Below, one piece after another: positions 26,630 to 46,730 of a DNA stretch of 64,000 nt. Positions within the stretch are counted from its first letter, which is position 1, and every line of letters begins with the position of its first letter. Source of the stretch: Erythrobasidium yunnanense. Its lineage: Eukaryota; Basidiomycota; Cystobasidiomycetes; Erythrobasidiales; Erythrobasidiaceae. The DNA is taken from contig BCJC01000004.1 in NCBI GenBank assembly GCA_001600175.1, positions 682,001-746,000 of the forward strand, given 5' to 3'. A program made the position numbers and the translations under genes. A model generated the notes under the pieces. That model saw nothing but the letters and a program-made list of their open reading frames with translations. It was not told the origin of the DNA and made no database searches.

Positions 26630-27941
26630 TCATACTCTCTTCAAAGACAAGCCGGAGCTTTCTGCCTTTGCAGCCTTCCGCTCTTCAGCAGCTTTGGCCG
26701 TCCAGCCCTGAACACTGTATCAGCCAGACTCCCACTTCTGCCGCATGGCCAACTCACATCCATTGTAACATAATTGTTCTTCTTCCGCCTCGATCTTTCG
26801 TGCGCCGGTTTGAGCAAGTCCGCATCTGATACAGCCAAGCCTGATATACTTAGATACGCAGTGACTTTCCCAGCATGTCCGCCATAGGAGTCAAGGCCGA
26901 TGATCTCCATATGATCAGAGCGGATTAGCTCATGCTCGTCGAATTTGTACTTCTCTAGGTTCTTCCGATAGGAGTTCGCAAGATGCGTGCCCACGAGCGC
27001 GAGGGCGTGTTCTTTGGTGTAGTACCACTATGAAAGCATCATACTTCGTCAGATGGGTAATACTCAACAGATCTGTCGGTACTCACGGCAATCCGAAGGT
27101 AGCCGACATCCTCCTGATCATCATCCTCTGCTTTCCAGACGCAGCAGTCTACAATCTCTCCGCACCACCACTGACTCGTGTCGAGCTCTTCTATCGATAC
27201 ATCCTCGCTTGCCTCGTCAAGAGCGCTTGGATCAGGCAGGATCCAGATACTCTGGCCGCGCTTCAGCTTGATGTCGATTTCTTTCTTGCCTCTTGTGACT
27301 GATGCTGTTGAGCATTGCAAGCTGGTCAGTCATGTAGAAAGGATAGACAGCTGCCAGCGGGCAGAGATGCCTCACTTGTAATGCTTTTACTGTCGCATCC
27401 AGCACAATATCAGCCTATATTCAAATGAAATAGAAGATGATTGTACATACTGGTATGAAAGCCGGCTCCCGAGATCTTCTGGCCTCAGCTGTAAGTCATT
27501 GGTCTTCCATTTGTACTGAAGAGGCATACAATCGCATCAGGATCGGTTGTACATCGACTCATGACCTGCTCACCGTTCCACTAGCCGAGCTGCTCGTAGC
27601 CCTTTGCGTTTTCAGGACGACAGACTCATCGGCATCCGGGCGCTTGCGCTTCTTCGACTTCGCAGGGACAGGAGCAGTATCTTCATTATAGGCGGATGCA
27701 GCTTCTTCAGCAATATCTGCACCGGCAGCATCAGTGTTTCTGCAGAGATTGGCCATAGGGCAGCGCCTGACTCGCCTTCATCAGTCGCGGTCGCACGCTG
27801 TTTCCCTTTGTTCCTACGCAGCAGACTTGGGTCTATGGTACTTCTGACCTCTATCACTTCATCTTGCGACTCTGTCACAGCTGTCGAGGTCTTGTTTACA
27901 GAGGGGCCTTTTCTTGCACGTGCAGGAGCTTTACGAGCCAT
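26630..27941 (-). CDS. BAH-like protein A (outer group)
   Basis: Exons 27941-27772, 27739-27574, 27515-27451, microexon 27389-27376, 27304-27087, 27027-26758 and 26707-26630 give 326 residues. The N-terminus is Lys/Arg-rich (MARKAPARARKGPS) and then acidic, with KSKKRKRPDADE as a possible nuclear signal. The short exon reads LQLRPEDLGSRLSY. The BAH core reads KRGQSIWILPDP, SQWWCGEIVDCC, GYLRIA joined to WYYTKEHAL, and ELIRSDHMEIIGL. The last exon starts GWTAKAAEERK. The first intron would be only 32 bases, so the 27740-27771 junction is doubtful. It is the end of the array nearest Dam1, which lies on the other strand; the two genes converge. Confidence 0.75.
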
Positions 27942-28169
27942 GGAGCAGGAGAGAGGAGCAGTGGATCAGAGAAGGGTCAGAGTAGGTATGGTGTATGTCT
28001 TTTGGCTTTGGTTGAGAGGCGGTCGGGTGCGTGAGGACAAGAAGTCGGAATCAGATTGACGTGTAAGCACTAAGCATGGCAGTCGATATTGTGCGCAGAG
28101 AAGCATATAATACAATAACAGGCAGATTTGATCGATATAGTCTATCTAGTGCGGCTTATAAAAGCTGGG

Positions 28170-29781
28170 CTATCGAGTTCTCTTGATCGTTCTCGTGGAT
28201 CTTCGCGATGCCTCATGTCCTGAATCCTGAGCTTCCTCTTCCTCATCATCGTCGTCATCATTTCGTCTCTTTCTTTTCGAAGTCGTCGTAGTTGCTTTCT
28301 TCTGAGTTCTTGTAATGTTTCCTTTGCGCTTCGTGCCCCAACCCTGCGTAATCGATCTTAAAGGTTGCGGAAATGTACACGAGCTACTATTCACAGTGAT
28401 TGAAACCATGTCGTTGTCCTTGCGTTTGGCGCGCTGTGCGATGGGTCTACAGCGGTCTTTGGCAGTCACTTTCAAGCCCTTCAAGCGAAGATATGTCTCG
28501 ATCCCATCGGCTAGGCCTGCATAGGCGTCCAGTGATACGAAATCCAGGTGGTCTGACTCTATTCGTTCGTCTTCGGCGAATCGATGCGCAGTAAGCTTTT
28601 TGCGGTATTCTGGATGTAAATGCTTCTTCGCTGTCAGATCCAGTGCATCATCACCGGCATAGTACCACTGCAGTCTTCGGGCATTAGTGTAGTATTCTCA
28701 CTCTTGAGCCAGGATATACGTACAGCGACTTCGAGGAATCCGAAAGGCTTCTTTCCTCCGTCATCCCAGTGACAGCAGTCCTCGATCACACCTACCCACC
28801 AATAGTGGTCATCAAGCTCTTCTATGGGCACGTCATGGGTTGCCGGCGGAAGGTCCGCTGGATTTGGCAGAATCCATATCTTCATGCCTCTCTTGAAGTA
28901 TACATCGATTTTCTTCTTGTTTCGAACCAAGGGAACTGTAGATACACATTAGATTGAATGTACTTTGTCAGACTTCCAAAATCCCCTCACCACTAAACGC
29001 TTTACTGATGGTTTGCGGCTGTCAGCTGGGTTCACAGGCTTGTGGGAGCGCTACATACACGCGTTTCAGGTCTCTATCCATATGCTGTACCGATAGCTTG
29101 ATCGAGTTGTCCACTTCAAATGCGTACTGGTAGACTCGAATCAATCGTGGGATTTCAGTGCTTCGACGAAGTGACACTTACGCTGCCTCCGTGCCCAGAC
29201 CTCGATGTCGATTCGGACGATACTCGAAGAACGCTCTCCTCGTCCTCGCTGTCTGATGCAGTCGGAGCGCTCTCAAAGCGACGTCCTGGCTTATTACGAA
29301 GTTCTTCAGCGGTGTGAGCGCGAGATCTACGCGGTTTCCCTTCTTCGTCGTCATCCTGGAGCTCATCTTCCTCCTCTGAGCTTGCGGGCGTGGGCATGCC
29401 TACGAGTTTGCGACTGCCGCTGGATGCAGGTCTGGCAGCTGCTTTGCCTTTGTTCGCCTTTGGTGGAGGTTCATTTCGGACTAAGCTTGACTGGATCACA
29501 TCATCATCGTCTTCGCTGCTGGCCGCGTCCGTAGAAACGAGTCTTGTCCGCGATGAGGTTGCCTTGGGTTTGACGGGTGGAGCTCGTGACGCTGGAACAA
29601 CAAAGTCATTTCGCGCGCAAATCAGCATGCTTTCATCGTATTCATCATCGAAAAGCCTACAGCTCTGTTCACTGTCCCTTGAGACAGGCTTCAAGGCTCT
29701 CGCATCGCGGTCTGGCTGTCTGTTCCCTCCAGTAGACTTCCGAGCGCGCGCAGGATTGGCTTTCTTGGTCTTGGACGACAT
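28170..29781 (-). CDS. BAH-like protein B (outer group)
   Basis: Exons 29781-29182, 29126-29059, microexon 29004-28991, 28935-28724, 28667-28395 and 28343-28170 give 446 residues, the longest of the array. The 200-residue N-terminus starts MSSKTKKANPARARKS and holds several acidic blocks (SSEDDDD, SSEEEDELQDDDEE). The BAH core reads YFKRGMKIWILPNPADLPP, DHYWWVGVIEDCC, GFLEVA joined to WYYAGDDAL, and ERIESDHLDFVSLDAYAG. The tail exon begins GWGTKRKG and is a long mixed basic and acidic run (KRKRRNDDDDDEEEE). A start upstream at 29943 is in frame but reads through promoter-like DNA, so I reject it. Confidence 0.78.
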
Positions 29782-30001
29782 ATTGTGAGTATTGGTAGGA
29801 AGGCAAGAGAAAGAGGAGTTGTCAGAAGACTTGAGCCTACTGCGACTTGTGCATGTTGGACAAAGGTCAAACTGTCTGACCTCAGACATGATCGCAAGCA
29901 CTGAGCACATCAGATTCCTACGCGAAAGAACTACTGCGATCACTGCATCCTTGCCGGCCTACGGCTGTCTAATCGGTTTGCGAGCAGAGTTGGAAACGGG
30001 A

Positions 30002-30014
30002 ACTATGGCTACAT
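30002..30014 (+). promoter_or_regulatory. ACTATGGCTACAT element upstream of BAH gene B
   Basis: A 13-base exact copy lies 221 bases upstream of the B start. About 40-60 bases further right is a weaker match to the block TACA..GGGTAAT.AAC seen beside the same element upstream of E and F. No GAAGATAGGGG element stands between it and the gene. The spacer 29782-30242 holds no gene. Confidence 0.5.
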
Positions 30015-30242
30015 GGCACCGACTTGCGAGAAAGTAGCGGTACAGCACTAAAAGATAGGGTAATGAACGATGGGATTCTACTGACTTCCTGGAAAAGCGA
30101 ACATAGCATTTTGATAGATAGTTCCGGGCTGACGGAGATGTGAGAGGAGAGTCGCTCTTGACATCAAGCCCGATTGATAGTATTGAATAGCATAGGGAAG
30201 ATAGCAGTGGGAGGTAGGTATCGGGCGATCCGGGCGCCGCAT

Positions 30243-31920
30243 TCATCGTCTGCTTTTCTTCTTCGGTTGTTTTGGTGCCGGAGTCTGAAGCTCATCCTCT
30301 TCTTCAGCAACAGCCCCTCGTTGGTCTCTTTCGCGCTTTCTTCTCTTCTTCGCTGGTTTGAAGCCGCGCCTTCTGTCCTCCTCTTCTTCTTCCTCCTCCT
30401 CCCCGTCGGAAGGTGGATCGGGTGCATTGATCATAGCTTCCTCGGTTGCGAAGCTTTCGAGCTTCTTAGTTCTTCGCTCAAATCCCTGGAGGCAGTCACA
30501 TAATCGTCAGCTACTGCGAGATACAGCGGGCTACGCGTATTTCTGCGCAACTCACATGCATCTTCAGCACATCTTTCTTGTCACGCACTTTGCGGTCTTC
30601 CGGGGCGGACAGTCTATCCTCAGCGCTCATCTCGAGGCCAGTCAGGACTAGATGAGCATAAATATCATCTGCAAAGCCGGCAAAGCTGGCCAAGGGAACG
30701 AAGTCGTGATGGTCCGTCAAGATACGTTCGTCTTCACCAAGCTTGTACTTCTTGACTCGGTCGACCCAAGAAGCATGGATATTGACATCCTTGAGCGCGT
30801 GAAGTTCCTTGTATGTGTAAAGCCACTGGAATCGAAAAACGGAGATGAAAGCAGGAGCGCAAGGGTTAAGCTGACGGGCAAACAGAGCCTATCATTTCAC
30901 TCACCACTACCTCCAGAAAGCCAATGGGAGACTTATCGACTGCATCATCGCCTGGACTGGTGTCCGGAGCCTTTGCGAGATAGCAACAATGGATGATCTC
31001 TGCGACACCCCAGTCTCGATCGGGTAGGTCCTCGATCTTGTCGCAGTTGTCAGGTATAGTTGACCTATGTTTGTCCGGGAGGACCCAAATCCTGTCGCCT
31101 CTTTTGAACGTGATAAGCTCTCCATCTCCCAAATCATCCCTCGGCTGTAGTTGAGCTGAGCACGAATGCAGTCAATGAGCGACTTGCATGTCTAGAGCAG
31201 TCTCGGTCAGCTGACGCGGTCTTACCTCGTATTGAGCTCCTAATAAAGCGCATTCAGCTTTAATCTAGCCAACCTAGAGTCTCGGTACGTTGAGGCAAAC
31301 TTACTTGTACTTAATCCTCGGTACAGCGTCCTTGCCTAGCGCTTCAAGGTGATCAATCGACTCGTCGACCTCCCAATCTGGCTGTATTGGATAGTCGACG
31401 GACACTGAGCATGCTAACTCTTCTTTTCGTCTAGACTTTGATTTGCACTCACATCAATCTCATCCTCTTGCAGCTCGTCCTGCGATGCTGCAATCATCGA
31501 AGACATCAGCCTGGTTCTCCTTCGAAAGTCGACCTTCGAGATGTACCTCCGGAGTCTGACACGGCGTCAGTTGTCTTCTTGTTTGCAGCTCCTGATTTCT
31601 TGATTGTTGCTTTGAGGATATTGCCTGTTGCGAAAGTATAGCTAAGTGTCAACAAGCAGGTAAAGACGCGTTCCGAAGAGGGAGGTGGACGCGATACGGC
31701 GGAGTTATAACGACAGGAAGTGATAGAGATATAGATAAAGGAGGACTGGACGGTCTTGGAGGTACACTTCACCTTTTGAATTTCGCGTTGCGACTGCACG
31801 TCCCCTGGAAATGCGCTCAGCAGCAGTAGCGCCATTCTTGCTTGCATTGTTGGATGATTTAGGGTTGGTTTGTCTTGTAGAGCGCTTCGCTGCAGGTTTT
31901 GCAGACTTTCTAGGTGCCAT
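30243..31920 (-). CDS. BAH-like protein C (inner group)
   Basis: Eight exons (31920-31773, 31624-31547, 31487-31453, 31381-31305, microexon 31239-31226, 31155-30905, 30825-30556, 30485-30243) give 371 residues. Start MAPRKSAKPAAKR is shared in style with D, F and G. The short exon reads PDWEVDESIDHLEALG. The BAH core reads FKRGDRIWVLPDK, KIEDLPDRDWGVAEIIHCCY, GFLEVVV joined to WLYTYKELHAL, and ERILTDHHDFVPLASFAGFA. In place of the YWW seen in G it has DWG, so the aromatic cluster differs. The tail begins GFERRTKK and contains a Glu run and KKRRKRERD. Confidence 0.78.
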
Positions 31921-32066
31921 GATGTCTCATGAGCTCGACGCGACAGGGAGGATGAAGCGAAAAGGAGAGTGATAGCAAGGCAAAGAGGCGTTGCGGAGAT
32001 CGATGCAGCTTGAGGTGAAGCAAAGTGCCTTTCGCTAGGAAAGAAATTGTCGAAACATTGGTAGGC

Positions 32067-32090
32067 GTCCGACAAACCTGAAGATAGGGG
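32067..32090 (+). promoter_or_regulatory. GAAGATAGGGG element upstream of BAH gene C
   Basis: Plus-strand core CCTGAAGATAGGGG, preceded by GTCCGACAAA, 147 bases upstream of the C start. It differs from the D and G copies at two or three positions. The spacer 31921-32265 holds no gene. Confidence 0.6.
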
Positions 32091-32162
32091 TAACATTTCC
32101 TGTTTCTTGTAGCAATTGAATTCGGACACTGATATGTCACTAAGCAGATCGTATAGAGAAAT

Positions 32163-32175
32163 ACTATGGCTACAT
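32163..32175 (+). promoter_or_regulatory. ACTATGGCTACAT element upstream of BAH gene C
   Basis: This exact 13-base copy lies 73 bases further from the gene than the GAAGATAGGGG element, the same order as for E and F. Confidence 0.55.
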
Positions 32176-32265
32176 GTGCGTTGTTTCGCAAAACATCGTG
32201 TCGGAATAATCGGAAGGGCGTGCGACATAAGGTACTGACTGAACGCTTACCTATCTGTTCATCCT

Positions 32266-33531
32266 TCATGTGCCGAGAGCATCATGTCGACTGTGCGAAG
32301 CTAGCAAACATGTTAGGCAGCCAGGGCGCCTCGGCCTCCTGCGCAATGCCTCTTGCCAATCCTTGTCTTCTGCATTCTCACGAAGTATTATAGCCTTGTT
32401 ATCTTCCCATGACGTGATCAAACGTTTGTTCTGTCTGTTCTCACAGCCCTGTGTGGAGAGGTAGGGCTCAGCCTAGAATCTGTACGCTTCGGCGAAATCA
32501 CCCGGCCTACCGTGATGCGAACAGGACCGGTCCACACTTTCCTTGGCTGTGTAATGCCAAAGACCCTTTCCTTGAGAGGTCTCTCCAGTCCGGTGAGACT
32601 CAGGTACACATCGATCTTCGCGTGGCCTCCGTAAGCGGAGATGGGCAAGAGGTCACAGTGATCCGAAAGGATTCTCTCATTGTCCTTGAGTCCATATTCC
32701 TTCACCTTATTGATGCAGCTAGCTTTGAGGGCAGTATCTTGCAATTCCAGGAGATTCTCGTACGAGTACAGCCACTAATAGTATGAACGGACACCGCCTA
32801 TCAGACTTTGTGACGTGGAATGTGCAGTCTCTAGACGTATGCTCACCTCCACCTGCAGAAACCTGAAAGGTATATCCGCTTCTTGTTCAAGTAGGCAGCA
32901 GTCCTTGATTTGGCCAGCATACCAGTATCTCTTTGGGAGGTCTTCGAATGTAGTATAAACCTCGGGGAGCTTCGTGGGAGGAATCCAGATTCTGTCACCT
33001 ATCAGGAATTTGACCGCCTTAGGCTTGTCTGTGGCCGGATCAGGCGAGAGACGAGCTGTTCGGACAGACGGATATGTCAGTCGTCTGAAGCCAGCGTACA
33101 GACCAATAAGGACTAACTGCGGCACCATTTTCTGGCAAGGTGGATCCAACATCAGCTTGTTCCGGCCTTGTCATTGCTGCGAGGTGGAGGAACTCACCTG
33201 TACTTGATCTTGTATAGAACCTCAGGGCCTTCACGCTTCAGAGCTGCTTCGATGTCTCTTATCGGGCCTTTCGAACCGGCTGCAACAGCAAGTCAGTGAT
33301 CGGAAATGAGAGGTATGAGCCATGTATCAGCGGAGGAGAATGACATAAGACGGCGACGGTATGTAAGACGCAGGTGTATGGACTGAACGGCGGCCTACCT
33401 GCTGAACTTCGTAGAGGATGGGCAGCCGAAGACAACGGATCAGCAGGCAACGGACGACTTCTAAGATCTTGACCTTTGCGACGCGTTGCAGCAGCATTTG
33501 CTCGCTTGCTGACAGACTTGCTCGGAGCCAT
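32266..33531 (-). CDS. BAH-like protein D (inner group, most diverged)
   Basis: Exons 33531-33399, 33279-33198, microexon 33131-33118, 33055-32847, 32774-32511 and 32448-32266 give 294 residues, the shortest member. It starts MAPSKSVSKRAN. The BAH core is recognisable but altered: FLIGDRIWIPPTKL, DLPKRYWYAGQIKDCC, RFLQVEV joined to WLYSYENLLEL, and ERILSDHCDLLPISAYGG. The C-terminal exon starts GCENRQNKR instead of GF and lacks the long charged tail of its neighbours. All splice sites and phases are intact, so it looks like a diverging gene and not a dead one. Confidence 0.68.
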
Positions 33532-33669
33532 TTTGCCAACTGATCGAGACAGAACCCGAATTCTGCTGCTGAAAGGCGTCCGCTGTGAGTAGTGAGAAGG
33601 TGGAGAAGCTCAAGCTGCGTCAGATGGCGTAGTTGCTTGTACTAGGGAAGGTCGCTTTGACATATCGGT

Positions 33670-33693
33670 GTCCGACAGACCCGAAGATAGGGG
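33670..33693 (+). promoter_or_regulatory. GAAGATAGGGG element upstream of BAH gene D
   Basis: GTCCGACAGA followed by CCCGAAGATAGGGG, 139 bases upstream of the D start. The spacer 33532-33998 has no gene. A decayed second element (ACTATGGCAA) lies at 33855. Confidence 0.6.
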
Positions 33694-33998
33694 CAAGATT
33701 GGCAAGAGAGGCAGGGTACAAAGCATTATAGGAAGCTCTGATACACCTTGAAAGTCTGATGTAGCCATGGTTCATCACGCGTACCACACGATCTAACAAT
33801 GAGAGTGAGAACCGGACTCAAGCGGAATAAAGGATGACCTCTTCGGGTAGCATTACTATGGCAATTGTGTCCTTCATCTCACTTCAGTACGGCGGGAGCA
33901 GACCTTCAGGGAAACTTTCAAGGAAGATGGGGAAAGGCGCATGAGGGGCACCAGACAGCATGTCTGAACGGGCGCCCCTCTGCAGCACGTAAGCGCGT

Positions 33999-35602
33999 TC
34001 ACACGGTACTCGTCTTCGCCTTCTTACTTGACCTGGTTACCGGTCTTCCTTCAGCAGCCTCATCACGGTCCCGATTGGGATTGTACCTTCCCCTCTTTTT
34101 GTTCTTCTTGCGGGTTTCAGCCGTTCTCTTCTTCTCGGCACTCTTGCTGACCCTATCCATGCTCTGTGCTTTCATTCGTGTAAAGGCTACTTTTTCAGCT
34201 TGTTCGGACCAGGAAGATTCTATTCCTCGATCTCTCTTGCTGAAGCCCTGACCGAGACGCAGAAGATGGTTATCAGCGAAGCATGATCTATCAGCAATGA
34301 GAAATATGTACTTACGTCCACCCATACATAATGCGTTACGCCGCGTTTCCGTCGATCTCTAACGTCTGAGAGTCTATCTGCTGCACTCATAGCCAGTCCA
34401 TGAATCTGCAGATGAGCGAATATCCCATTTGCAGGCCCAGCTAGGCTAGAGAGAGAAACAAAGTCCCGATGGTCCGTCAAGATTCGTTCGTTCTCCTTGA
34501 GCTCGTACTTCTTGATCTTGTCAATCCAGGAGCGGTGTAGATTGACCGATTCCAGCAACAGAGCTTCTTCATATGTATATAGCCACTAAAGTTCACATGG
34601 CATGAGCGCGGCTGCAATGCATCGCATACAATGTCAGGGGTCACGCACCACTACCTCCAGAAACCGCATAGAAGATCCAGACTCGATCGCCGGGTCTTCG
34701 ATCTGGCAGCAGTTGATGATCTCTCCAACACTCCAGTACTTGTCAGGCAAGTCTTGAGGGCTCTCACAGTCCGAGGGAATTGCGAGACTCTGTTTGTCGG
34801 GAAGAATCCAGACTCTATCGCCTACGGAGAGCTGGAAATTGACTACCTTTCCCGGATCTTCTGCATTGCGTGGGACAAGTGAGACTGTGAGAGAGTTTCG
34901 TTATGTGAGCTCTTCTGCGCACTTCTGTCGTCCCAACGCGTGACATACCCTGTAACGTTTTGCTGAATCGAACGCTAAGGCTTAGCTCACTTCGCTGCAT
35001 ACGATTCAGCAAGTCAAAAAGCTTACTTGTACTGGATCTTCTCAAGAATATCCTTGCCTCCGGTCTGCAGCTCCTCCATTATTGAATCGAGCTCCCAGTC
35101 CGGCTGAGTTAAGTGGAAATATGCAGTCAGCTGGCAACAAAGATTGTCAGGTGCAAGCAGGAAATGCTCACGCCGTCATCATCTGAGGATTCTCTACCGA
35201 CAGAGACGTCCTCGCTATCGAGTGATGCGGACTGCGTATCCTTTTCGCGCTTGGGCGCAGTAGCTTTCGTGCCGTCTATGGAAGTATGCTCTGCCGGCTT
35301 TCTGTTATCATTGGCGATATCGGCTGCATAGTCAGAAAATTAAATGCAGATTAGCGGTTCTGCCGGACGGGAATTGCAAGCCAGGAAGTCGTGAATGAAG
35401 TTCGCCGAGAGTGCAAGAGGTTGAAAGACTGGAGGTCGGGAGCGAGTGATCGGAAGTTACCTGTTGAACGGGACGGCGAAGCTTGCTCTCGAAGTACCTC
35501 CTCGGCAGCAGGGTCAGCTTCTTCAAGCAAGGCTTCAGCCTCGCAAGTAGCAGCTTGGACATTTGCTGTAGTTATCTTCATAGGCGATTTGCTGTGCTCC
35601 AT
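33999..35602 (-). CDS. BAH-like protein E (inner group)
   Basis: Exons 35602-35461, 35323-35172, 35103-35027, microexon 34962-34949, 34884-34649, 34585-34316 and 34247-33999 give 379 residues. The N-terminus (MEHSKSPMKITTANVQ, then Glu/Ala-rich) differs from the MAPxKS starts of C, D, F and G. Short exon: PDWELDSIMEELQTGG. BAH core: LSVGDRVWILPDKQS, DLPDKYWSVGEIINCC, FLEVVV joined to WLYTYEEALLLE, and ERILTDHRDFVSLSSLAG. The tail exon starts GFSKRDRGIES and is rich in Lys/Arg/Glu with RSSKKAK near the end. Confidence 0.76.
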
Positions 35603-35768
35603 AGCTGCGGCCGGAAAACCTTCCTGTACGCGCTGAGCGAGTTGTCTGAGTCCGTTTCTGAAGCCAGAGCAGCCTGGTAGCGACTCGCGAGCGCAAGACT
35701 ATCAGTTCGAATGGAGTGGAAGTAAGCTGCATTGCTAGGGGTGACTCCAGCTGGTTCGACATGTTGGC

Positions 35769-35792
35769 GTTCGACTGATCCCCAAGATAGGG
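35769..35792 (+). promoter_or_regulatory. Diverged GAAGATAGGGG element upstream of BAH gene E
   Basis: The sequence is GTTCGACTGA followed by TCCCCAAGATAGGG, 167 bases upstream of the E start. It is the weakest of the five inner-group copies. The spacer 35603-36108 has no gene. Confidence 0.5.
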
Positions 35793-35863
35793 CCAGGACC
35801 GGTAACTGACTTAGCATCGAAGCAATGGAAGATTTCTTACTACTTAGGACTAATGGAAATGAT

Positions 35864-35876
35864 ACTATGGCTACAT
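35864..35876 (+). promoter_or_regulatory. ACTATGGCTACAT element upstream of BAH gene E
   Basis: Exact copy, 72 bases beyond the end of the first element. It is followed by a block (GCGATACACCG, then ATTGGGTAATAAAC) that recurs in the same order in the F-G spacer. Confidence 0.55.
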
Positions 35877-36108
35877 TCGATGTGTTCTGCCAGAGAAAGC
35901 GATACACCGTGAGAATATTGGGTAATAAACAAGGAGTCTTCGAGCAGAAAGTGTAAGCAGATAGACTGAAGAAAGACGTATCGTATCGAGCTGCTGTGTC
36001 AGTATACGATGTGTAGAAAGCAAGATAGGACTGACAAACACGACCAGCGGGCAAGGATAACTCCATCTGTAAATTAGCTGTCCGCGAAGTCGTACGAAGA
36101 GCGCGAAA

Positions 36109-37741
36109 TCATCCTCTGTTCTTCCTCCTTCTCTTCTTATTTGAGTTAGGGCGATCTTGTTCTTGTCGATCTTGTCCTTCCTCATCTTCGTCCTCGTCAT
36201 CCTCCGCATCTGCTTTGCTCATCTGCTCTCTTCTCTGCTGGGCTGCGGTAGCCTGGCGTGCCGCCTTTTCAGCCTCTGGCGACTTAATCTCAATGCCCTT
36301 CTTTCGATTTTCGAAGCCCTGCATGGACGCAGAAACAGAAAACGGGCTCGTCAATGTACCATTTACGTGAGAAGTCGGGGAATGCTGACTGACATCGATC
36401 CAGACCTTATCTCCCACCATTCGTCTCGGGCGATTCCCCGCGTTTTTCAATCTGTTCGCCGCAGACACGGCCAGACCATGCAGTCGGAGACGAGTGAAGA
36501 TACCATCGGCAAACCCGGCGATGCTCAAGAGAGGAACAAAGTCTCGATGATCCGTTAAGATTCGCTCGTTGTCTTCGAGACTGTATTTCTTGACCTTGGT
36601 TAGCCAGGAAGAATGGAGATTTGTTCCTTTGAGTCTTAAGGCCTCTTCATACGTATACAGCCACTGACGAGAATGTCAATGCCGACGATAATGTCAATGC
36701 GCCATATCAGTGAGAATCACCGCCTCATGCATGCTTCTCGGGCTGTCGATGCATACTCACAACTACCTCGAGAAAGCCGAAATGGCCTTCGAAGTCGTCG
36801 TGAGGATTTATGACGATGCAGCAATTGATGATCTCGCCAACATCCCAATATTGATCAGGCAAGTCTTGAGGTCTTGCATAACCGGATGGAACTGTAAAGC
36901 TTTGCTTGTCAGGCAGTACCCAGACCCTGTCTCCGATCTTGAAGTGTATGATCTCTTCTCGGTCTGGTTGATTCTTGTCAGTAAACGGCGCTGAGAGAAT
37001 GCGCAGGGCTGATCAGCGCATTCTTGCCTCTGCGATCTGCAAGCTCTACCTTGTATTGCATTTCTTGGTCAGGAGAGGGTTTTAGCTGATCACCGACTGG
37101 GCGAATGAGATGAGTCATTCTCACGTGTAATTTATCTTCTCAAGCACCCCTGCACCTTCTTCATGCAGAAAGTCGAGTGTGTAGTCCAAGGTCCAATCCG
37201 GCTGTTTGACCGAAGTTAGCTCAGCGGAGGGTTGGCGTACATAACAGAGGGCGCTTACATCCTCCTCATCCTGAGATCTGTCTCCGTGCGAGGAAATTAT
37301 AACAGCCTGAGAGTCTGTAGGCGGCTTCCCGGGACCGTTGACCCAACCAGCGCCAAGTTTTTGGAAGGCCTTACTGAAGTCGGAAGCAGCGTCATTCGAC
37401 TCCTTCTGGTCTCTATGAATTTTCTGCTGTTTGCTGGGTCTGCTGCTGCCCACTGGCGTAGCGCTACTAGATGCGGTCTTGCTTTTAGCAGCGGATGTAC
37501 CACCTGGATCGCAATCAGGGAGAGGAGCAGGATGAGAGAAGTTCCGAAGAGAGATGAGTTCAGCCGATAAAGAAAGGGTATGGACTATGGTTTAAGCCTC
37601 AGTAACGCCCAGGTCGACCATACCTCCGCTTCGTGTTTTGCGGGCAGTGACCGCTTCACCAGCTTCAGTCTTGCTCGAGCTTGTATTTGCGTTGCCTGAT
37701 GACCTGCGCGTTTTCTTCTTCGCTGATTTCGCAGGCGCCAT
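36109..37741 (-). CDS. BAH-like protein F (inner group)
   Basis: Exons 37741-37624, 37503-37259, 37201-37125, microexon 37063-37050, 36990-36761, 36663-36394 and 36318-36109 give 387 residues. Start MAPAKSAKKKTRRSS. Short exon: PDWTLDYTLDFLHEEGAG. BAH core: FKIGDRVWVLPDKQS, DLPDQYWDVGEIINCC, GFLEVVV joined to WLYTYEEALRLKG, then ERILTDHRDFVPLLSIAGFA and GLAVSAANRL. The tail exon begins GFENRKKGIEIKSPEA, nearly the same as in G, and ends NKKRRRKNRG. F and G are the closest pair in the array and also share flanking DNA. Confidence 0.8.
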
Positions 37742-37886
37742 GGTACCTCCAGATCCTGGATCGACGAAACAGTGACTGCTTGACTAGAACGTCCAAGTGT
37801 CGCTGGATCAAGTTAGCGGGGAAGGCATAGAAGCTCAAAACGAGTCGGGAGGAGGCAAAGCCTTGTGCATGAGCAACAGTCATCGT

Positions 37887-37910
37887 GTTCGACAGGCCCG
37901 AAGATAGGGG
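37887..37910 (+). promoter_or_regulatory. GAAGATAGGGG element upstream of BAH gene F
   Basis: GTTCGACAGG followed by CCCGAAGATAGGGG, 146 bases upstream of the F start. The spacer 37742-38235 has no gene. Confidence 0.6.
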
Positions 37911-37990
37911 CGACATATCGAAGGCAGGGGAACCAAGGTAGTTTCGCAGAGCTGAAGATTCCGTACCGAGTGAGACTAATAGAAACTAGT

Positions 37991-38003
37991 ACTATGGCTA
38001 CAT
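37991..38003 (+). promoter_or_regulatory. ACTATGGCTACAT element upstream of BAH gene F
   Basis: Exact copy 81 bases beyond the first element, followed by GCGATACACCG (38023) and ATTGGGTAATAAAC (38041), as in the E-F spacer. Confidence 0.55.
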
Positions 38004-38235
38004 GAGATGTAGGCTAGGGAGAGCGATACACCGGGAAAAAATTGGGTAATAAACGACGAGTCTCGGGGCAGAAAGCGTAAGCAGGCAGATTGAAAACGGG
38101 CCTACGAAGCTGTTTAGTATAGTATGATATATAGATGTGGATCTGGCGCCGAAACGAGACCAGAGGGCCAGAAATAGTCGATGTGACTGGTTGGTATGGA
38201 CGAGCTGTGCCGGAGGTTCTGCAGCGACATCGCGA

Positions 38236-39893
38236 CTACCCTCTACTCTTCCTCCTCTTCTTCTTACTTGAGTCAGAGCGGGATGGCTCTTCTTGATCTT
38301 CTTCTTCCTCGTCTTCCTCCTCGTCACTGTCCGGATCTGCTTTTCTCTTTTGTTCTTGCTCTTTTCTCTTATGCTCTCGCTCTTTCTGAGCTGCGTCAGC
38401 TTTTACAGCCTCTGGTGACTGGATCTCGTGGCCTTTCTTTCGGTTTCCAAAACCCTACATGGTTACAGTAAATGCATTCAGCGATCTACCCCCACACACT
38501 TGACGGGTCGGCAGATGATAACTTACATCGATCCAGACCTTATCTCCCGTCTTACGTTTCGGGCGCTTTCTGGCTTCTGTCAATCTATTTGCCGCAGACA
38601 TAGCCAGGCCATGAAGACGCAGACGAGCGAAGATGCCATCGGCAAACCCAGCATAGCTTGACAGGGGGACAAAGTCTCGATGATCGGATAGGATACGCTC
38701 GTTCTTCTCTAGTCCATAGTCGCGTGTCTTGTTCAGATAGTATGAGTGAAGGTTGGTATCTTTGAGCTTGAGAGCGTGTTCGTAGGAATAAAACCACTAA
38801 TGGAGCGCAACACAGAGACGATTAGCCATACTCACCGGCAGAGCAGGACTTCGTCGACTCACAACTACCTCCAAGAAACCGATATGTTCCTGCTCACCCT
38901 GAGTATCGTCACCGTGAGGGAGGTAGCAGCAGTGTATGACCTCTCCGATCCACCAATAATCATCGGGAAGATCCTCAATCTTGTCACAGCCAGCTGGAAT
39001 GGTACCGCTCTGCTTGTCTGGAAGGATCCAGATTCTGTCACCTATTTTAAATCTGATAATTTCTTGCTTGTCCGGCTTGTTTTTCAATGTGAAAGGTGCT
39101 GAAGAAGTATGCTCAACTGAGATGCTCCGTCCGACTAAGAAGTAACTAGAAGTCACCTTGCATGGTGTTTCTAGGGAACGACTCAGTTCAGCTTGTGCAG
39201 CTTTGAAGGCAGGAAGGTCAAACTCACGTGTAAACCAATTTGTCCAGGTCGAGATCGTCTCCCAGATCTTCAATCGTGTTATCCAGGTCCCAATTCGGCT
39301 GTCAGCAAGCGGGCGTCGTATTGCATATGCCTCAGCGATCGTATGGCATCGCGAATTTCAGTAGATCACGAAGCTCACATCGACCTCTTCGTCTCGAGGG
39401 CTTCCATAACTAGACACCATGACAGCCTCACTGTCGGCAACAGTTCCTCCATTTCCCCATCTTGAACCAGTCTTGTGAACAGATCCTCCAGTAGATCTTG
39501 AGGCCGTATCTGCAGAACGGCCCTTCTTCTTGCCTCCTGTAGCCTTCTTACCTTTGCCTGAAGTCTTTTTGGGCAGGCTCTTGCCTCCTGTAGCGTAGTT
39601 ACCACCTGCATAGACATGTGAGGGATAGATGTTTGACAGGCGATGGAGACGGAAGCAAGGAGGAGAGGAGGATGCAGGCGGAATGGAGGAGTGTATGATG
39701 ATCCACGTGTAAGTAGATACACCTCAAGCGAAATGTTGTCAGCCATACCTCCACTTCGCGTCGTACGGCCAGCAGGCGTCTTGTCCGCTGCTGTCTTGCC
39801 TGCTGTCTTGCCTTTACCGCCTGTACTCTTACGCGCAGTCTTGCCTGAACTCGTGCTCTTCGCTGACTTCTTTGCAGACTTGCTGGGCGCCAT
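38236..39893 (-). CDS. BAH-like protein G (inner group, best match to a BAH consensus)
   Basis: Exons 39893-39749, 39605-39379, 39298-39228, microexon 39170-39157, 39098-38863, 38796-38527 and 38454-38236 give 393 residues. The N-terminus starts MAPSKSAKKSAKSTSSGKT and is rich in Lys/Gly/Thr, like a histone tail or linker-histone end. Short exon: PNWDLDNTIEDLGDD. BAH core: FKIGDRIWILPDKQS, KIEDLPDDYWWIGEVIHCCY, HIGFLEVVV joined to WFYSYEHALKLK, then ERILSDHRDFVPLSSYAGFA. This follows the family pattern: entry strand, YWIG, W-F-Y, N-E-x-x-x-S-D-H-x-D. The tail starts GFGNRKKGHEI and ends in Lys/Arg after a Glu run. Exon 1 is followed by a long (143-base) intron. Confidence 0.82.
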
Positions 39894-40027
39894 GATCACC
39901 CTTCGAAGGGCTTCGAATCGTCTGGACTCAAGGCCGGCAGTGGCTCAGTGCATTAGGGGGTCATAGATATGAGTTCTGAAAAGTCTTGTGCTGGTCTGGC
40001 TATTAAATTCAGAAAAAACAAGTCGGT

Positions 40028-40051
40028 GTCGGACAGACCCGAAGATAGGGG
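40028..40051 (+). promoter_or_regulatory. GAAGATAGGGG element upstream of BAH gene G
   Basis: GTCGGACAGA followed by CCCGAAGATAGGGG, 135 bases upstream of the G start. No second element is seen. The spacer 39894-40479 is otherwise without a gene; its right half is rich in GTAG/AGTAG repeats. Confidence 0.6.
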
Positions 40052-40479
40052 TTTTATTCGTACAAAGGCAGAAAGAGAAGGCGTTACAACACGCGTGAGA
40101 AGCTACTGGGGGCATTTCTTGAATTTAGGTTGATTTGCATTACAATAGTAGTAGTATATCGAGACAAGTAGGTAGCTACTGGTACACGACAAGTCCATCT
40201 CTTGATTCCGCATTCCACAGAAAAGCCAGCCTCAAGCGCATAGATACGATGGGAGAGAATCTAATTGTACAACCTTCTTGTTGAGCGAGCTTTGTGAACT
40301 AGAGAGCGATAAGGGTAGAGAGGAAGTAGAGCAGTAGCTTGGATTTCGCTGTCGGCGATCCGAAAAATGGTAAATAGCGTAGGTAGTGAGAGAGACAGTA
40401 GCTGCACCTTTGCGGTGTGAAGAGATAGGTAGAGAAGGTAGATAGTATCGGTAGGTAAAGTAGAGATATACAGCGTGCT

Positions 40480-42144
40480 TTAATCCCTGCTCTTGCGCGA
40501 TTTCTTAGACGATTTCTTCTCGACTGGTGCAGGCTCTGCCTTTCTCTTCTTTGACGCTTCCGAGGTAGATGTGGGCTTCTTGCTCTTTGTCTGAGAGGAT
40601 GACTTGTATGCTTTATCTCTTCTAGCAGCCGCCTTTGCCTTCTTGAGGGCAGTAGCCTTTCTCTCGAAGCCAGTAACGTTTACTGCTCGTGACACCTTCT
40701 TTCTTTGAGCGAGAGGACGGAGTCTCTCGGCATCGGGGATCTCGAGTCCCTTAATGTCGATATGGCTGACGATACCATCGGCGAATCCGGCGAAACTGTC
40801 GATAGAGATGAGATCGACGTGGTCGGAGCGGATGCGTTCATCCTCGTCGAAACGGTAGTCCGTCAACCTCTTCTCGAACGATTTGTGTATGTTCTTGCCG
40901 ATTAGATTGAGAGCATCGTCGGGAGAGTAGTCCCACTGGAAGTGCTCCGATCAGCACTCATACATATGCGGAGAACGGCATTCCCCCTTACGGCAACTCG
41001 TAGAAGGCCCAAGGGCTGGAGGCCTGGTCCCTGATCAGACTGGTCGACCCTGCAGCAATCCAGAATTGTGGCGGACCACCATTGATCGTCTGGCAGATCA
41101 ATCAGGTCGACTTCTCTTGATTGAGGGGGAAGCCAGGATGGATCTGGAAGTACGAAGATTCTTTGATGGCGCTGGAAGAAGTATCTCTTCTGTTTGCCGT
41201 CCCGTTCGAGCTTGACTGTAAGGGAAGAGGAGAGAGAGCCATCAGCCAATTGATCTAGAGGAAGGAGATAGCATGATGATTACCTTTCAGATCTGGGCTG
41301 TGAACGGCGAGGAGCAGAGGTAGAAGAAGGATGTGATCAGCTTTTAAGCAGGGTACAGGTACACCGCCGGCCTTGATGAACGTACTGGTATGTTAGCTTG
41401 CTACCGATGTCTTCTGGCTTGAGCCTTATGTCGACTATTTCCCAAGTATACTGCCAATACAGATACATCAGTACGAGCGAGACCATGATCGAATCGAAGC
41501 CAAATAATGGACTCACGCCGTTTGCTCCTCTTCCGGATCCAGATGAGACGAGATCCTCATCGTCGCTGGACTCAGCCTCTTCGGTAGATACGGTAGTTGA
41601 CTTGCGCTTTGTCTTCTTCGCTGGCTTCGACGTCTTGGTTGCGCCGTTCTGAGAGTTGGCGGCTACAACCGCCATCGTCTCATTCCCGTCATCGCTGTCT
41701 TCTTCATCCTCATCGCTCTCTTCTTCTTCAGAGGCGGGTGCAAGAGCGGGTGCTGCCTTCTTGCTCTTGGAAGCGGGTTTGGCAGCGGGCTCAGCTACGA
41801 CTGTCTTGCTCTTCTTCTTGGGTGAAGTTGGTTGTTGAACTAGGCTTGCTTCTACATCGTCGGACTCTTCTTCAGACTCCGTGTCGTCGGCGGGGGCAGC
41901 TCGCTTTCTGGAGGAGCCAGGAGCGGACCGGATGACGTTTTCCTCGTCTATCGACGATATACCGTCAGTGTATGCATAGCGTATTCTCGTTTCCTCACTG
42001 ACCCGAGTCGTTCTGTACGGGCGGGGCTGCCTTTCTGGCTGTTCTGCTCGTAGAGGCTGTTCCCTGGCTCTTTCGAGCGTGCAGCGGTTTAGCAGCAGGA
42101 ATACTGCCTGTTGACTTTCTCGTTGTAGCTTTCTTGGGCGCCAT
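40480..42144 (-). CDS. BAH-like protein H (outer group)
   Basis: Exons 42144-42003, 41947-41517, 41450-41386, microexon 41297-41284, 41215-40992 and 40935-40480 give 443 residues. It starts MAPKKATTRKSTGS and holds a long region of alternating acidic and Lys/Ser-rich runs, including DEENVIRSAPGSSRKR, matched in protein I. Short exon: DIRLKPEDIGSKLTYQ. BAH core: RYFFQRHQRIFVLPDPSWLPP, DLPDDQWWSATILDCC, GLLRVAV joined to WDYSPDDALNL, and ERIRSDHVDLISIDSFAGFA. The intron that in other members lies before the GF tail is missing here (VTGFERKATALKK is read through). It ends KKSSKKSRKSRD. Confidence 0.78.
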
Positions 42145-42577
42145 CTTTGACTGTTCAGAAGTGTTGGAGCGAAAGAGCCAGCAGCCGGCCCTGATGTAGC
42201 GACTTGAACTTCTAGCTTGAGCGGATAGGGGGGCGGGACGCTTGATTGGTCATGACTTTGAGAGCAAGAAGGAAACATGTGGAGGGAAGTATCAAGAAGC
42301 TACTGTTTACACGTATATAGATAACAACGAGATAGGTAAGAAAACAAGAGAGACTATTTACACAATTCCGACAGCGTCCGGCCCAAGAAAGGAGATAAGC
42401 TTAGATGCATTGCTTTCCACTGGTTTGCACTGATCAGAGAGCATCTTGTGGGAAGAGGAGAGTACCTGTCTGCCCCAAACCAGCTCTTACAGCGATCCAA
42501 GCCAAGAGGGACTTTGTCCAATATTAGTAGGTATCCACTGGTAGGTAGAGGTCACATTGTCTTGAAAGCTGTTACAC

Positions 42578-44462
42578 TTAGTCTTCCTCCTCTTGCGTCT
42601 CTTCAGCAGGACCAGCTCGGCGGAGTCTCTTCGTGGAAGCCGAAGCTGCTGAGACTTGAGAATGTCTGTTCTGCTCCCGAACGACGGTGTCCTGTTGGAT
42701 AAAGTGCACAAGGATGAGGTGACAGAGAGAAAGAGTAGCAAGGGCGCAGCAACCAGCGTGAGCCTTTGTCAATTACTCGCAACGCTAGAAGATGTTTACG
42801 CACCTTCACTTTCCATCCAGTCATCATGACGAATTTCTTATTCTTTGCGCGCATGGAAGGATGCCGCAGTCGATCTCTGTCGTCTACTTCTAGGCCTGAC
42901 AGGTTGAGATAGCTCTCTATTGCGTCCGCAAAGCCAGCGAAGCATTCGATGCTGTATATTTCAGGACAGTGGCAGCAGAGTGGGTTGTTAGATATTGGAT
43001 GCGGATGATAAAAGCAAGAAGAAAAAAATGGAGGAATGTAATGATCAGAAGGAGAAAAAGGCAGATTGCGGGGAAGAGGACGTACCCGACGAAATCGAGA
43101 TGATCGCTCCGAATCCGCTCATCTACATCGAAGCGATACTTCCGTAACTTCTTCTTGTAGTCTTCATGTAAGTTCTTCAGATCTAGCGCATGATCTCCGC
43201 TATAGAACCACTGTTTTCCAGATTCCCCGCAAAATATAACATTCAGCTCTTTCTTCCCTTCTAACAACTGCTAGCGGTAGAGACCTCACCCTTATGCGCA
43301 ACACACCGACATTCTCCCCCGTTGTGTCCATCTGGTCCAAGCTACAGCAATCGAGCACTTCCGCAACCCAAAATTCGTCGTCCGCTAAATCTGCAATGGC
43401 CACTTCGTGCGATACTTCAGGGAGCCAGCTCGGATCGGGTAAGATCCAGATCTTGTCACCTCGTCGGAAACGCACTTTTTCTTGCTTGCCTTCGCGCTCG
43501 ATGGTGGCTGGATGCGCCAACTGGATTTAGCTTGGGTATACGGCATTTATGAGAATGAACGGCTTACAATTTATGGAATTACTGTGCAAGAAGAAGAGCA
43601 TTGTCAGTGAGAATTCGCCGGCCCGAATAGGCAGGTCGGATAGAAGACTGACTGATATGTCAAGCGTGTCCCTATATCTTGCGGCCGTATTTGCGGTGCA
43701 TCTACATCCCATTGATACTGCAGAAAGTATGCAAGCGAGTCATAGATATAGACCGGGCGGGAATGTGATCGGGGAGGGTGTATACAGCGTCAGTTTCGAG
43801 AATGGGTTTGCCAGGACAAGAGAGCAGGACGGACCATCGAGCTATGACCAGATCTTGATCTCGTCGACACTTTATGGCTTGAATCATCGTCGCTCTCTTC
43901 GGCTTCTGGAGAAGCTGTATACCGTCTCTTTGCACCCGCCTTGATAGCTTTTAACGTCTGTCTTCCATTCGCAGGCGCAGGTGCAGCTGCAGCTACTGTT
44001 CTCGAGACAGACATCTGGGATTCAGGCAGTATTGGATACGGTATGTTCTTGCCTCTCCCTAGGGCTGTGGGCTTTGTGTTCCGCAGGGGATCCTGAGCGC
44101 CGGCATTGTTGAGGTTTCTGAGTATGTTGCGGTTGTCTGATGAGCTAGCATCATCGTCGTCGTCCTTGTTCTGCTGCGTCTGGTTCTCCTTCTCTTCGGA
44201 GGTGTTGCCCGCCAGGCTGTTGTTCCCTAGCTTTGCGTCGCTGGATCCCGACGATGATTTGATGATGTTTTCTTCGTCTGTAATACACTACCCTTCAGTA
44301 TTCTTGCTGCTTTCAATGTCCAGCTGTTGTCGGCCCACCGCTCTCGCTTCCATTGCTCTCCCTTGGAGCTGCTTTCCTCGCTGTTCTTGAAGGTGTCATT
44401 ATCCCCTGCTTCCTCCCTTTATTACCATCCTTGCGTGGTGGTGCTTCCATCGTTGAAGACAT
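42578..44462 (-). CDS. BAH-like protein I (outer group)
   Basis: Exons 44462-44339, 44277-43835, 43717-43653, microexon 43581-43568, 43507-43290, 43210-43086, 42951-42804 and 42691-42578 give 416 residues. It shares DEENIIKSSSGSS with H. Short exon: APQIRPQDIGTRLTYQ. BAH core: RFRRGDKIWILPDPSWLPE, DLADDEFWVAEVLDCC, GVLRIR joined to WFYSGDHALDLK, and ERIRSDHLDFVGIECFAGFA. A 134-base intron interrupts the last of these blocks, unique to this member. The tail (GWKVKVRK, then DTVVREQNRH) is short and acidic at the end. The end of exon 2 is uncertain: 43835 and an in-phase donor a few codons earlier both work. Confidence 0.74.
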
Positions 44463-44573
44463 GTTAAACACTTCAGATCAATGCAAGGCCAAGCTTCAAG
44501 TTAGGGGTTACCCTCTTGATGAAACTTTCAAGACTCTTAGCACTCTGCTTTCAACCACAGTGTTATATCCACT

Positions 44574-46730
44574 ATGGACTTCTTGTTGAGGAGGGTAAGG
44601 CAGCCCTTCCAGCCTCGTTATACATCCCATCTGTTGATCATGCATCATCCTTGGCCAGCCCGAGAGCTACAAACTCAAGAAAAACTACAAGATGGGACGT
44701 ACTTTAGGGACAGGCAAGACATGCGCTATCATCCATACCTACCTCGAGCCCTCCCTGATGAAGCTTGGACTTCAGGCTCCTTCGGCTTGGTCAAAGAGGC
44801 ACTATGGATCCCTCACAACTTACAAGTCGCTGTCAAGATCATCACAAAGAAGGTAGTCAAAGGCAAAGAACACATAGTCTACGATGAGATGGAAGTCTTG
44901 CGCGCGCTGGACCACGAAAACATAGGTCCGTCATCGGTCATTCACGCGCGACTCCAACAGTTTCGCCTCCCATTCTTCCATCTTTTCCTACATCCTTTAT
45001 TTCTCCTGTTTACTCTGAACTGACTCTGCGCACCGTCCGCAGTCAAGTTCTACGTGAGAATAAGAGAGCCAAGCCAAGACAAATCTGCACAGCACTGATA
45101 CCCAAATCGATGGCAGGAATGGTTCGAAAGCAAGGAGAAGTTCTATCTTGTATTCCAGCTCGCAGACGGCGGAGGTCAGTCAATATCGATTGACGAGTTC
45201 TCGGATTTAAGCTGATTCCTTCGGCATCTCCGGTTGATAGAGCTGTTTGAACGGATATGTGAACGCGGGAGTACGTCCTCTATTCATCTACATCTGACAT
45301 ATCGATATGGTCTGACATTTCCGCGAGCAGAGTTCACCGAAGCCGACAGCGTCAAGGTCATACAGGCTGTTCTGGTGAGACTGTCCTTACACATAAGGGC
45401 TTTCGCAGCTGAACCCTCACACAGCACGGCGTCCAATATCTCCATTCGCAAGAAGTTGTCCATCGGGATCTGAAGCCGGAAAACCTGTCAGCTTTCTTAC
45501 CTTTACGCTTCTCTACTCGTGAAACTGATCGTACGGCTTACATGAATTAGGCTATTCGAGAGTCCTACATCTGATAAACTACTCATATGCGATTTCGGGA
45601 TAGCGAGACATTTGGAAAGTCCGGATGAGCTGCTGACGACACTGGCTGGCTCGCCGGGGTATGCAGGTGAGGGAGTAGTACTGTTTTGCAAAAACGGGGA
45701 AGCTGATGATCTCTTTGTACAGCGCCGGAAGTACTGACGAGGGCCGGACATGGGAAGCCAGTGTAAGCGTTGGCAACATCCGCCAGAACTCGGGGTATTC
45801 CGCTAATCCTGGACGCGAATAGCGATATGTGGGCCATCGGGTACGTCTTGTTCTTCCTCTCGCGCGTTCAAGACCTCTCTGACCTGGCGAATACAGGGTG
45901 ATCACCTATACTTTGTAAGCCAATGCCCCTGTGCACACCGCCTGCAACATTAAGAGACCTTTGGTATCTTACAAAGGTTATGCGGATATGTGAGTCAAAG
46001 TCTGGTGTCGCGCTGAGTCCGTAGCTGAAGCTGCTGTGCCTGTTTAAGACGCCCTTCCGGTCTGAAAACCGCCGCGAACTGATTGAAGAAACGACGAAAG
46101 CGAAAGTCTACTTCCACGAAAAGTACTGGAAGAGGGTGTCTGACGATGCGAAGGGTATTTTAGATTTTCCTTTCCTGTCTCGGGCGTTCAAGCTGAATTA
46201 TTGCGTGCCAGACTTCATTCTATGCCTCATCAAGCCTGATCCGAAAGACCGCTTGACGGCTGTTGAAGCTTTGAATCATCGCGTACGTACCACTGTCGAT
46301 CAGAAATTTCACCTCAAGCCGACTTCCTCGGTTTTCGCAGTGGCTCAAGCAAGGCGAGCAATACGACCACGATATCTCCGATGGTCTTCGAGAGAACTGG
46401 AATGCGCGTCGTAAATGGAAGATGGCGATCTCCGGCATCCAAGCTGCTGTGCGAATGCAAAAAGCGTCCGGCGTATCGAGCCATGCGAATTCACCTAGAA
46501 CGTCACCTCGAAAAAGTGGAGAATACAATACAGCTACGGATACAGAGACGGATGCTACTGATGATGAGGTGGACAAGGAGAGGAAGAGGAATGGGAAGAG
46601 GCCGGAAATGTATGGATTGAAGACGGACGATCAGACGGCCAGGAGAATATCCAGCGAATTGCATCAGGACCTAGATGATAAGATGAACAAGCTTTACGAT
46701 CGAGCTCAGGATCTGACGCTTAGGGAATAG
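44574..46730 (+). CDS. Calcium/calmodulin-dependent protein kinase (CMK type)
   Basis: Sixteen exons can be joined (44574-44594, 44659-44713, 44776-44925, 45043-45053, 45117-45174, 45241-45270, 45331-45374, 45425-45486, 45551-45666, 45723-45762, 45823-45840, 45897-45914, 45977-45989, 46049-46154, 46212-46282, 46341-46730), giving 400 residues. The kinase domain has the Gly loop LGTGSFGLV, VAVKII, HRDLKPENL, DFGIA, the activation segment TLAGSPGYAAPEVL and DMWAIGVI. After DPKDRLTAVEALNHRW comes the regulatory helix NARRKWKMAISGIQAAVRM, a likely autoinhibitory and calmodulin-binding site. The second intron begins GC instead of GT. Exons as short as 11 and 13 bases occur. Confidence 0.9.

Follow-up and report, generated by a model that had tools for sequence, protein, structure and literature searches.

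A minus-strand array of nine genes encoding putative BAH-like proteins, some with histone H3-like N-termini, in Erythrobasidium yunnanense

What kind of protein does a fungus encode nine times within 18 kb, and what might such proteins recognise? The question is raised by nine genes of Erythrobasidium yunnanense, named A to I by rising coordinate, which all lie on the minus strand and span positions 26,630–44,462 of the window, that is, the whole 64,000-nucleotide stretch analysed here (contig BCJC01000004.1, hereafter C4, positions 682,001–746,000). C4 is 2.29 Mb long in a genome of 20.9 Mb and 10 contigs, which places the array far from either contig end. Each protein would consist of a variable, mostly basic N-terminal tail, a divergent BAH-like domain and a charged C-terminal tail. 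Our tentative answer, to which we give slightly less than an even chance, is that these are locally expanded readers of the histone H3 tail whose own tails offer H3-like lysines. If this is true, one small family would contain both a domain of the reader type and a mimic of that domain's ligand.

The nine-gene array

The gene models were joined by hand from genomic sequence, and splicing is predicted throughout; confidence is lowest for the start codon of E and for exon 1 of B. All nine models are complete frames without internal stops. They contain 53 introns in total, all GT-AG and 50–148 nt long. The core has the same order in every gene. A short exon is followed by a 14-nt microexon, whose preceding intron is of phase 2 and whose following intron is of phase 1, then by a core exon and, beyond a phase-0 intron, by an exon beginning W-x-Y. 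The microexon is new relative to the initial annotation of this DNA, as are the H3-like N-termini described below. Exon 1 is closed by an intron in eight genes, B being modelled without one, and a tail intron is present in all genes except H, at a position common to seven of them and five codons later in I. There is an extra N-terminal intron in C and an extra intron within the W exon of I, and the second N-terminal exon is missing from D.

A tree of the domain split the genes into an ABHI and a CDEFG clade at 100/100 support, the inner branches of both being weak, and pairwise domain identity among the nine ranged from 27 to 66%. The first clade consists of genes A (26630..27941; 7 exons, 310 amino acids [aa]), B (28170..29781; 6 exons, 446 aa), H (40480..42144; 6 exons, 443 aa) and I (42578..44462; 8 exons, 416 aa). 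The second consists of genes C (30243..31920; 8 exons, 371 aa), D (32266..33531; 6 exons, 294 aa), E (33999..35602; 7 exons, 379 aa), F (36109..37741; 7 exons, 387 aa) and G (38236..39893; 7 exons, 393 aa). Genes C–G are contiguous and flanked by A and B on one side and by H and I on the other, which suggests tandem duplication as the origin of the inner set, inside an older one.

Searches of the genome with a 205-aa piece of G and a 194-aa piece of H gave 19 matches each, all within the array. Each query alone retrieved exons of all nine genes, which indicates a likeness beyond chance, and the description of the locus as one tandem family on the minus strand with nine full frames was borne out. 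No copies outside the array were found among the best 16 candidates scored per query, a search that distant copies could escape. Elsewhere, six pattern matches came from viral contigs and 22 from genomes of prokaryotes, and none was confirmed as a relative. The signature motifs of the initial annotation need some correction. H has IFVLP and D has IWIPP in place of [IV]W[IV]LP; ER[IL].SDH.D departs to ELI and SDH.E in A and to TDH in C, E and F. The charged tail opens with G[FW] in eight proteins and with GC in D, just as had been claimed.

H3-like N-termini

The N-termini are variable and mostly rich in Lys and Arg; that of E is not basic. Residues 19–27 of G read TARKSTGGK, which is exactly H3 6–14, and residues 13–19 of B read ARKSTGG. 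Neither was reached in any of 2,000 shuffles of the protein's own first exon, and the RKSTG of H was reached in 59 of 2,000. A genome-wide exact scan for ARKSTGG-coding DNA found four places (two for the backwards control pattern), namely gene B (29726..29745, or C4:711726-711745, minus strand), gene G (39817..39836, or C4:721817-721836, minus strand) and two places on contig C5. One of the latter is a canonical H3 start and the other an H3-like gene, whose first codons are taken to lie on a separate exon.

With the Met removed, H begins APKKATTRKSTGS, which shares 8 of its first 14 residues with H3 in register (residues 2–15, coded at 42100..42141 on the minus strand), including K4 and R8-K9-S10-T11-G12. 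A match of this kind arose in 3 of 20,000 shuffles that kept residue 1, and in the same test the other eight proteins were not significant. H also contains ARKSQ, and it shares with I the sequence SRTARKAAP, whose ARKAAP (42022..42039 in H; 44364..44381, at residue 28, in I; both minus strand) is H3K27-like with Pro at n+3. Shorter ARK motifs are ARKT at residue 33 of F and ARKA in A, whose N-terminus reads M-ARKA. Within their first 60 residues, the nine proteins together contain the motif [AT]RK[STAQ] eight times, spread over six of them (shuffle mean 0.54; none of 5,000 shuffles reached 8), and their other 2,899 residues do not contain it once. By these comparisons, B, G and H possess H3-tail sequence beyond what composition would give, and A, F and I possess short motifs only.

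In the reading that we tentatively favour, the N-termini of B, G and H would present H3K9-like sites (ARKSTGG, TRKSTG), and those of H and I H3K27-like sites (ARKAAP). Its main rival is a chromatin-binding role without functional mimicry, in which the family is BAH-like and divergent, the ARK-rich N-termini are basic low-complexity DNA-binding tails or nuclear localisation signals, and the likeness to H3 has no function. The basic composition of most N-termini fits this explanation, as does the commonness of short RK motifs, if the 8,230 proteins given in the available text of PMC10611923 are taken as motif holders. Three of the nine members (C, D and E) contain no [AT]RK[STAQ] motif at all. 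Mimicry is further weakened by the motif class having been set after the sequences were seen, by the non-independence of the paralogues and by weak best local BLOSUM matches to the H3 tail (B 21/300, G 12/300, H 7/300; 75–278/300 in the other six proteins). However, composition-keeping shuffles never produced the nine-residue match of G or the seven-residue match of B, with the match of H less rare, and the exact coding DNA of ARKSTGG is present only in the array besides two H3-type genes. We regard functionless basic tails as the lesser possibility, unlikely and still to be taken seriously.

Two other features of these N-termini were observed. Acidic-hydrophobic stretches precede the domain in F (DSQAVIISSHG), G (ADSEAVMVSSYG), A (DEVIEVRS) and H (DEENVIRS), and we take them to resemble SUMO-interaction motifs. 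The first residues after Met are APKK in H and APRK in C, which presumably conform to X-Pro-Lys/Arg, a motif for N-terminal methylation.

The BAH-like domain and its candidate reader residues

A profile of the nine domains aligned with a profile of eight BAH domains over 76 columns, at 74% and with a score of 36.6; the maximum of 150 column shuffles was 20.1, and the reversed alignment gave 14.6. The alignment is collinear and runs from a GD motif, by way of W-x-Y, as far as the SDH segment. Known BAH domains treated by leave-one-out gave 70–100%, the lowest being an SNT2-like domain about level with the array family. Against EBS and SHL alone, the plant BAH-PHD readers of H3 trimethylated at Lys27 (H3K27me3), the array profile scored 28.8 (best of 100 shuffles, 18.2), and against six rows left after removal of the BAH domains from the same genome it scored 28.3 (best shuffle, 20.8). 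The ABHI clade alone scored 30.8 and single sequences 13.9–22.7 against all eight, values for which no separate shuffles were made.

Reader residues were mapped by the eight-row profile alignment. In PtSHL, changing Tyr41, Trp63, Tyr65, His88 or Asp90 abolished H3K27me3 binding according to the available text of PMC6013494, and His88 and Asp90 are described there and in a review (PMC13068663, likewise available in part) as reading S28 and the n+3 proline, P30, of H3. At the aligned positions of the array, Trp, Tyr and His are present in all nine proteins and Asp in eight, with Glu in A, whose candidate residues are W169, W196, Y198, H234 and E236. Trp and Tyr are also present in four of six other BAH domains and are thus hardly informative, whereas all six differ from the array at the His and Asp columns. 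At the Tyr41 position, A, B, D, G, H and I have an aromatic residue (W or Y); this third cage position is Gly167 in C, Ser180 in E and Asp201 in F. We propose that the domain would bind methyl-lysine within an H3 sequence of the ARK type by means of Trp-x-Tyr, the third aromatic (in six of nine) and His-x-Asp, and that in C, E and F, which are without the third aromatic, methyl-lysine binding may have been changed or lost.

A number of results count against a BAH fold with such a reader site. Pfam BAH (PF01426) matched none of the nine spliced proteins at E up to 10, so the BAH profile search suggested along with the initial annotation was negative; a six-frame Pfam scan of the genome gave two BAH matches over the cut-off, both outside the array. 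A profile search of the Protein Data Bank (PDB) returned no BAH among its matches. Against the six BAH domains other than EBS and SHL, the array profile scored 19.3, under the best shuffle of 23.7, and the C–G clade alone scored 20.1 against the eight (no separate shuffles). The smaller BAH profiles align over just 41–42 columns, from W-x-Y to the SDH segment, and the Tyr41 position is mapped by the eight-row profile only. Two AlphaFold models, both including an unspliced intron, were too poor to judge the distorted beta-barrel of a BAH domain by, with a pLDDT of 68.9 and 53.8 and a pTM of 0.37 and 0.40; Foldseek on the first of these intron-bearing models found no BAH among the best 50 of 74 matches, the best E being 1.3. 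Weak Pfam matches to trypsin, DUF3246, a clostridial protease family and DUF7028, all below cut-offs, were taken as chance, as were 27 PDB sequences of a single toxin family (E 1–2.9) aligned over about 30 residues across the IW.LP-like stretch.

These results raise the alternative that the domain has a small beta fold unrelated to BAH, its W-x-Y and ERI-x-(S/T)DH having recurred by convergence. The negative Pfam search, the lack of a BAH among the Foldseek matches listed and the score within shuffles for the six other BAH domains speak for it. A collinear alignment of 76 columns that beats all 150 shuffles speaks against it, and we judge convergence rather improbable. The dependence of the score on EBS and SHL, together with the 41–42-column alignments, points to a likeness to the histone-reading type of BAH that is strongest in the second half of the domain. 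The BAH identity proposed in the initial annotation is thus supported by profile comparison and reader residues, though not by Pfam, the six other domains or the structure models, and is provisional.

Shared control, chromatin machinery and known systems

By the NG86 method, synonymous divergence (dS) was undefinable for 25 of the 36 gene pairs. The other 11 had dS of 1.69–4.32 and ratios of nonsynonymous to synonymous divergence (dN/dS) of 0.08–0.42 (F–G: 0.08 at dS 3.31), ratios that are rough with synonymous sites near or past saturation. This saturation makes the duplications look old and, with no dN/dS above 1 among the 11 scorable pairs, means that rapid adaptive evolution is not demonstrated. 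A fast-evolving genome-defence or self/non-self family, for which the tandem arrangement, the lack of copies elsewhere among scored candidates, the long branch of D and the changed third cage position of C, E and F might speak, is very improbable given these values, nine unbroken models and no partner domain by Pfam; the earlier suggestion of fast evolution was not upheld. Only D (32,266–33,531) shows a long branch in the domain tree. It also has one N-terminal exon fewer, a short N-terminus and IWIPP, and it may be under relaxed constraint.

The CDEFG genes share a promoter element. The sequence CCCYATCTTCRGG has five copies in the genome (backwards control, none), four of which lie upstream of C, D, F and G. 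It reads CCCTATCTTCAGG upstream of C (−169; 32077..32089) and CCCTATCTTCGGG upstream of D (−161; 33680..33692), F (−168; 37897..37909) and G (−157; 40038..40050), and a one-base variant, CCCTATCTTGGGG, is found upstream of E (−190; 35780..35792), all on the minus strand. The element or its E variant is thus present at −157 to −190 in all five CDEFG genes and in none of the four ABHI genes, and in the C–G genes it is followed by a sequence resembling the palindrome TGTCGGACA. Such a near-private element suggests joint control of the five genes, and it offers a handle on when they are used. Part of the promoter likeness may have been inherited with the duplications, though synonymous sites are saturated. 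The fifth copy (C4:1907128) has no TGTCGGACA-like part after it and was taken as chance.

Another motif, ATGTAGCCATAG, is located upstream of B (30003..30014, minus strand), C (32164-32175), E (35865-35876) and F (37992-38003). It occurs 17 times in the genome, 13 of them at other places, compared with twice for the backwards pattern, and so may be a general regulatory site. On the plus strand next to the array, a protein-kinase fragment was observed at 44,541–45,023 (PF00069, 25.1 bits against a cut-off of 31.7).

With respect to enzymes, a Pre-SET match over the cut-off adjoins a SET match on contig C2, and we read this gene as a putative SUV39/Clr4-type methyltransferase. The genome has 16 SET matches, none of which was recognised by eye as EZH2-like from partial sequence. 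The EZH2 CXC domain gave no match in the genome, the positive controls of that search being equally silent. The H3K27me3 reading suggested in the initial annotation is weakened by the lack of a CXC match or a recognised EZH2-like protein and by the presence of the putative SUV39/Clr4-type gene. No chromo-shadow domain was matched in the genome, which would tell against the preferred reading; the controls were also silent, so this is uninformative. No DNA C5-methyltransferase was found in the genome, and the bacterial and archaeal controls did match. Three tandem SET-domain genes, similar by eye, were also observed at C4:1,887,000-1,896,900 (matches at C4:1888707, 1891351 and 1893291); they may be SMYD-like and possibly represent another chromatin-type domain that has expanded locally. 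They lie 13.5 kb from the fifth CCCYATCTTCRGG copy and are not regarded as linked to the array.

If the array proteins are locally expanded H3-tail readers, they would probably be nuclear, and the lysines of their tails could be methylated by an H3 methyltransferase, for example the SUV39-like enzyme. Methylated tails could recruit methyl-lysine readers, siblings included, or compete with H3 as a decoy or anchor for mark-making machinery, with silencing as the putative output. A stronger version, which we consider doubtful, is a self-referential system in which the H3K9- and H3K27-like tails of siblings, methylated by an H3 methyltransferase, would be read by the BAH-like domains, giving a polymer or a decoy network alongside H3, tuned by variation of cage and tail. 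Because the peptides and the domains are short, direct tests of binding and methylation are feasible, and the array would permit a fungal test of histone mimicry for self-assembly versus competition with H3.

Among open-licence literature, no description of such an array or of BAH-plus-mimic proteins was found in titles and the beginnings of abstracts. The family shares with EBS and SHL the Trp-x-Tyr, the His-x-Asp in an SDH-type segment and, in six of nine members, the third aromatic. Unlike them, it has no PHD finger by Pfam, a 15-column insertion ahead of the third aromatic and a longer stretch past W-x-Y, and identity in the aligned columns is 17%. Two BAH proteins encoded in the same genome, RSC1/2-like and SNT2-like as named from their sequence, share the BAH superfamily with the array; unlike it, they score above the Pfam cut-off and have other residues at the His and Asp columns, and they lie outside the array. 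The available text of PMC13068663 and PMC11315935 describes BAH domains of fungi as readers of repressive H3 marks, a role akin to that proposed for the array, namely EPR-1 and BP1 for H3K27me3 and DIM2 BAH1 for H3K9me3. They are set beside the array by description only; according to the same text DIM2 belongs to the DNA methyltransferases and BP1 combines BAH with PHD, unlike the array proteins.

For the tails, the closest parallel is offered by G9a/GLP and ATF7IP, which the available text of PMC9768651 describes as non-histone chromatin proteins with H3-like sites methylated by H3K9 enzymes. There, the automethylated mimics of G9a/GLP bind HP1, and the mimic of ATF7IP recruits MPP8. Compared with these proteins, the array is a family of paralogues with up to three sites per protein, one of them in H3 register at the very N-terminus and joined to a reader-like domain.

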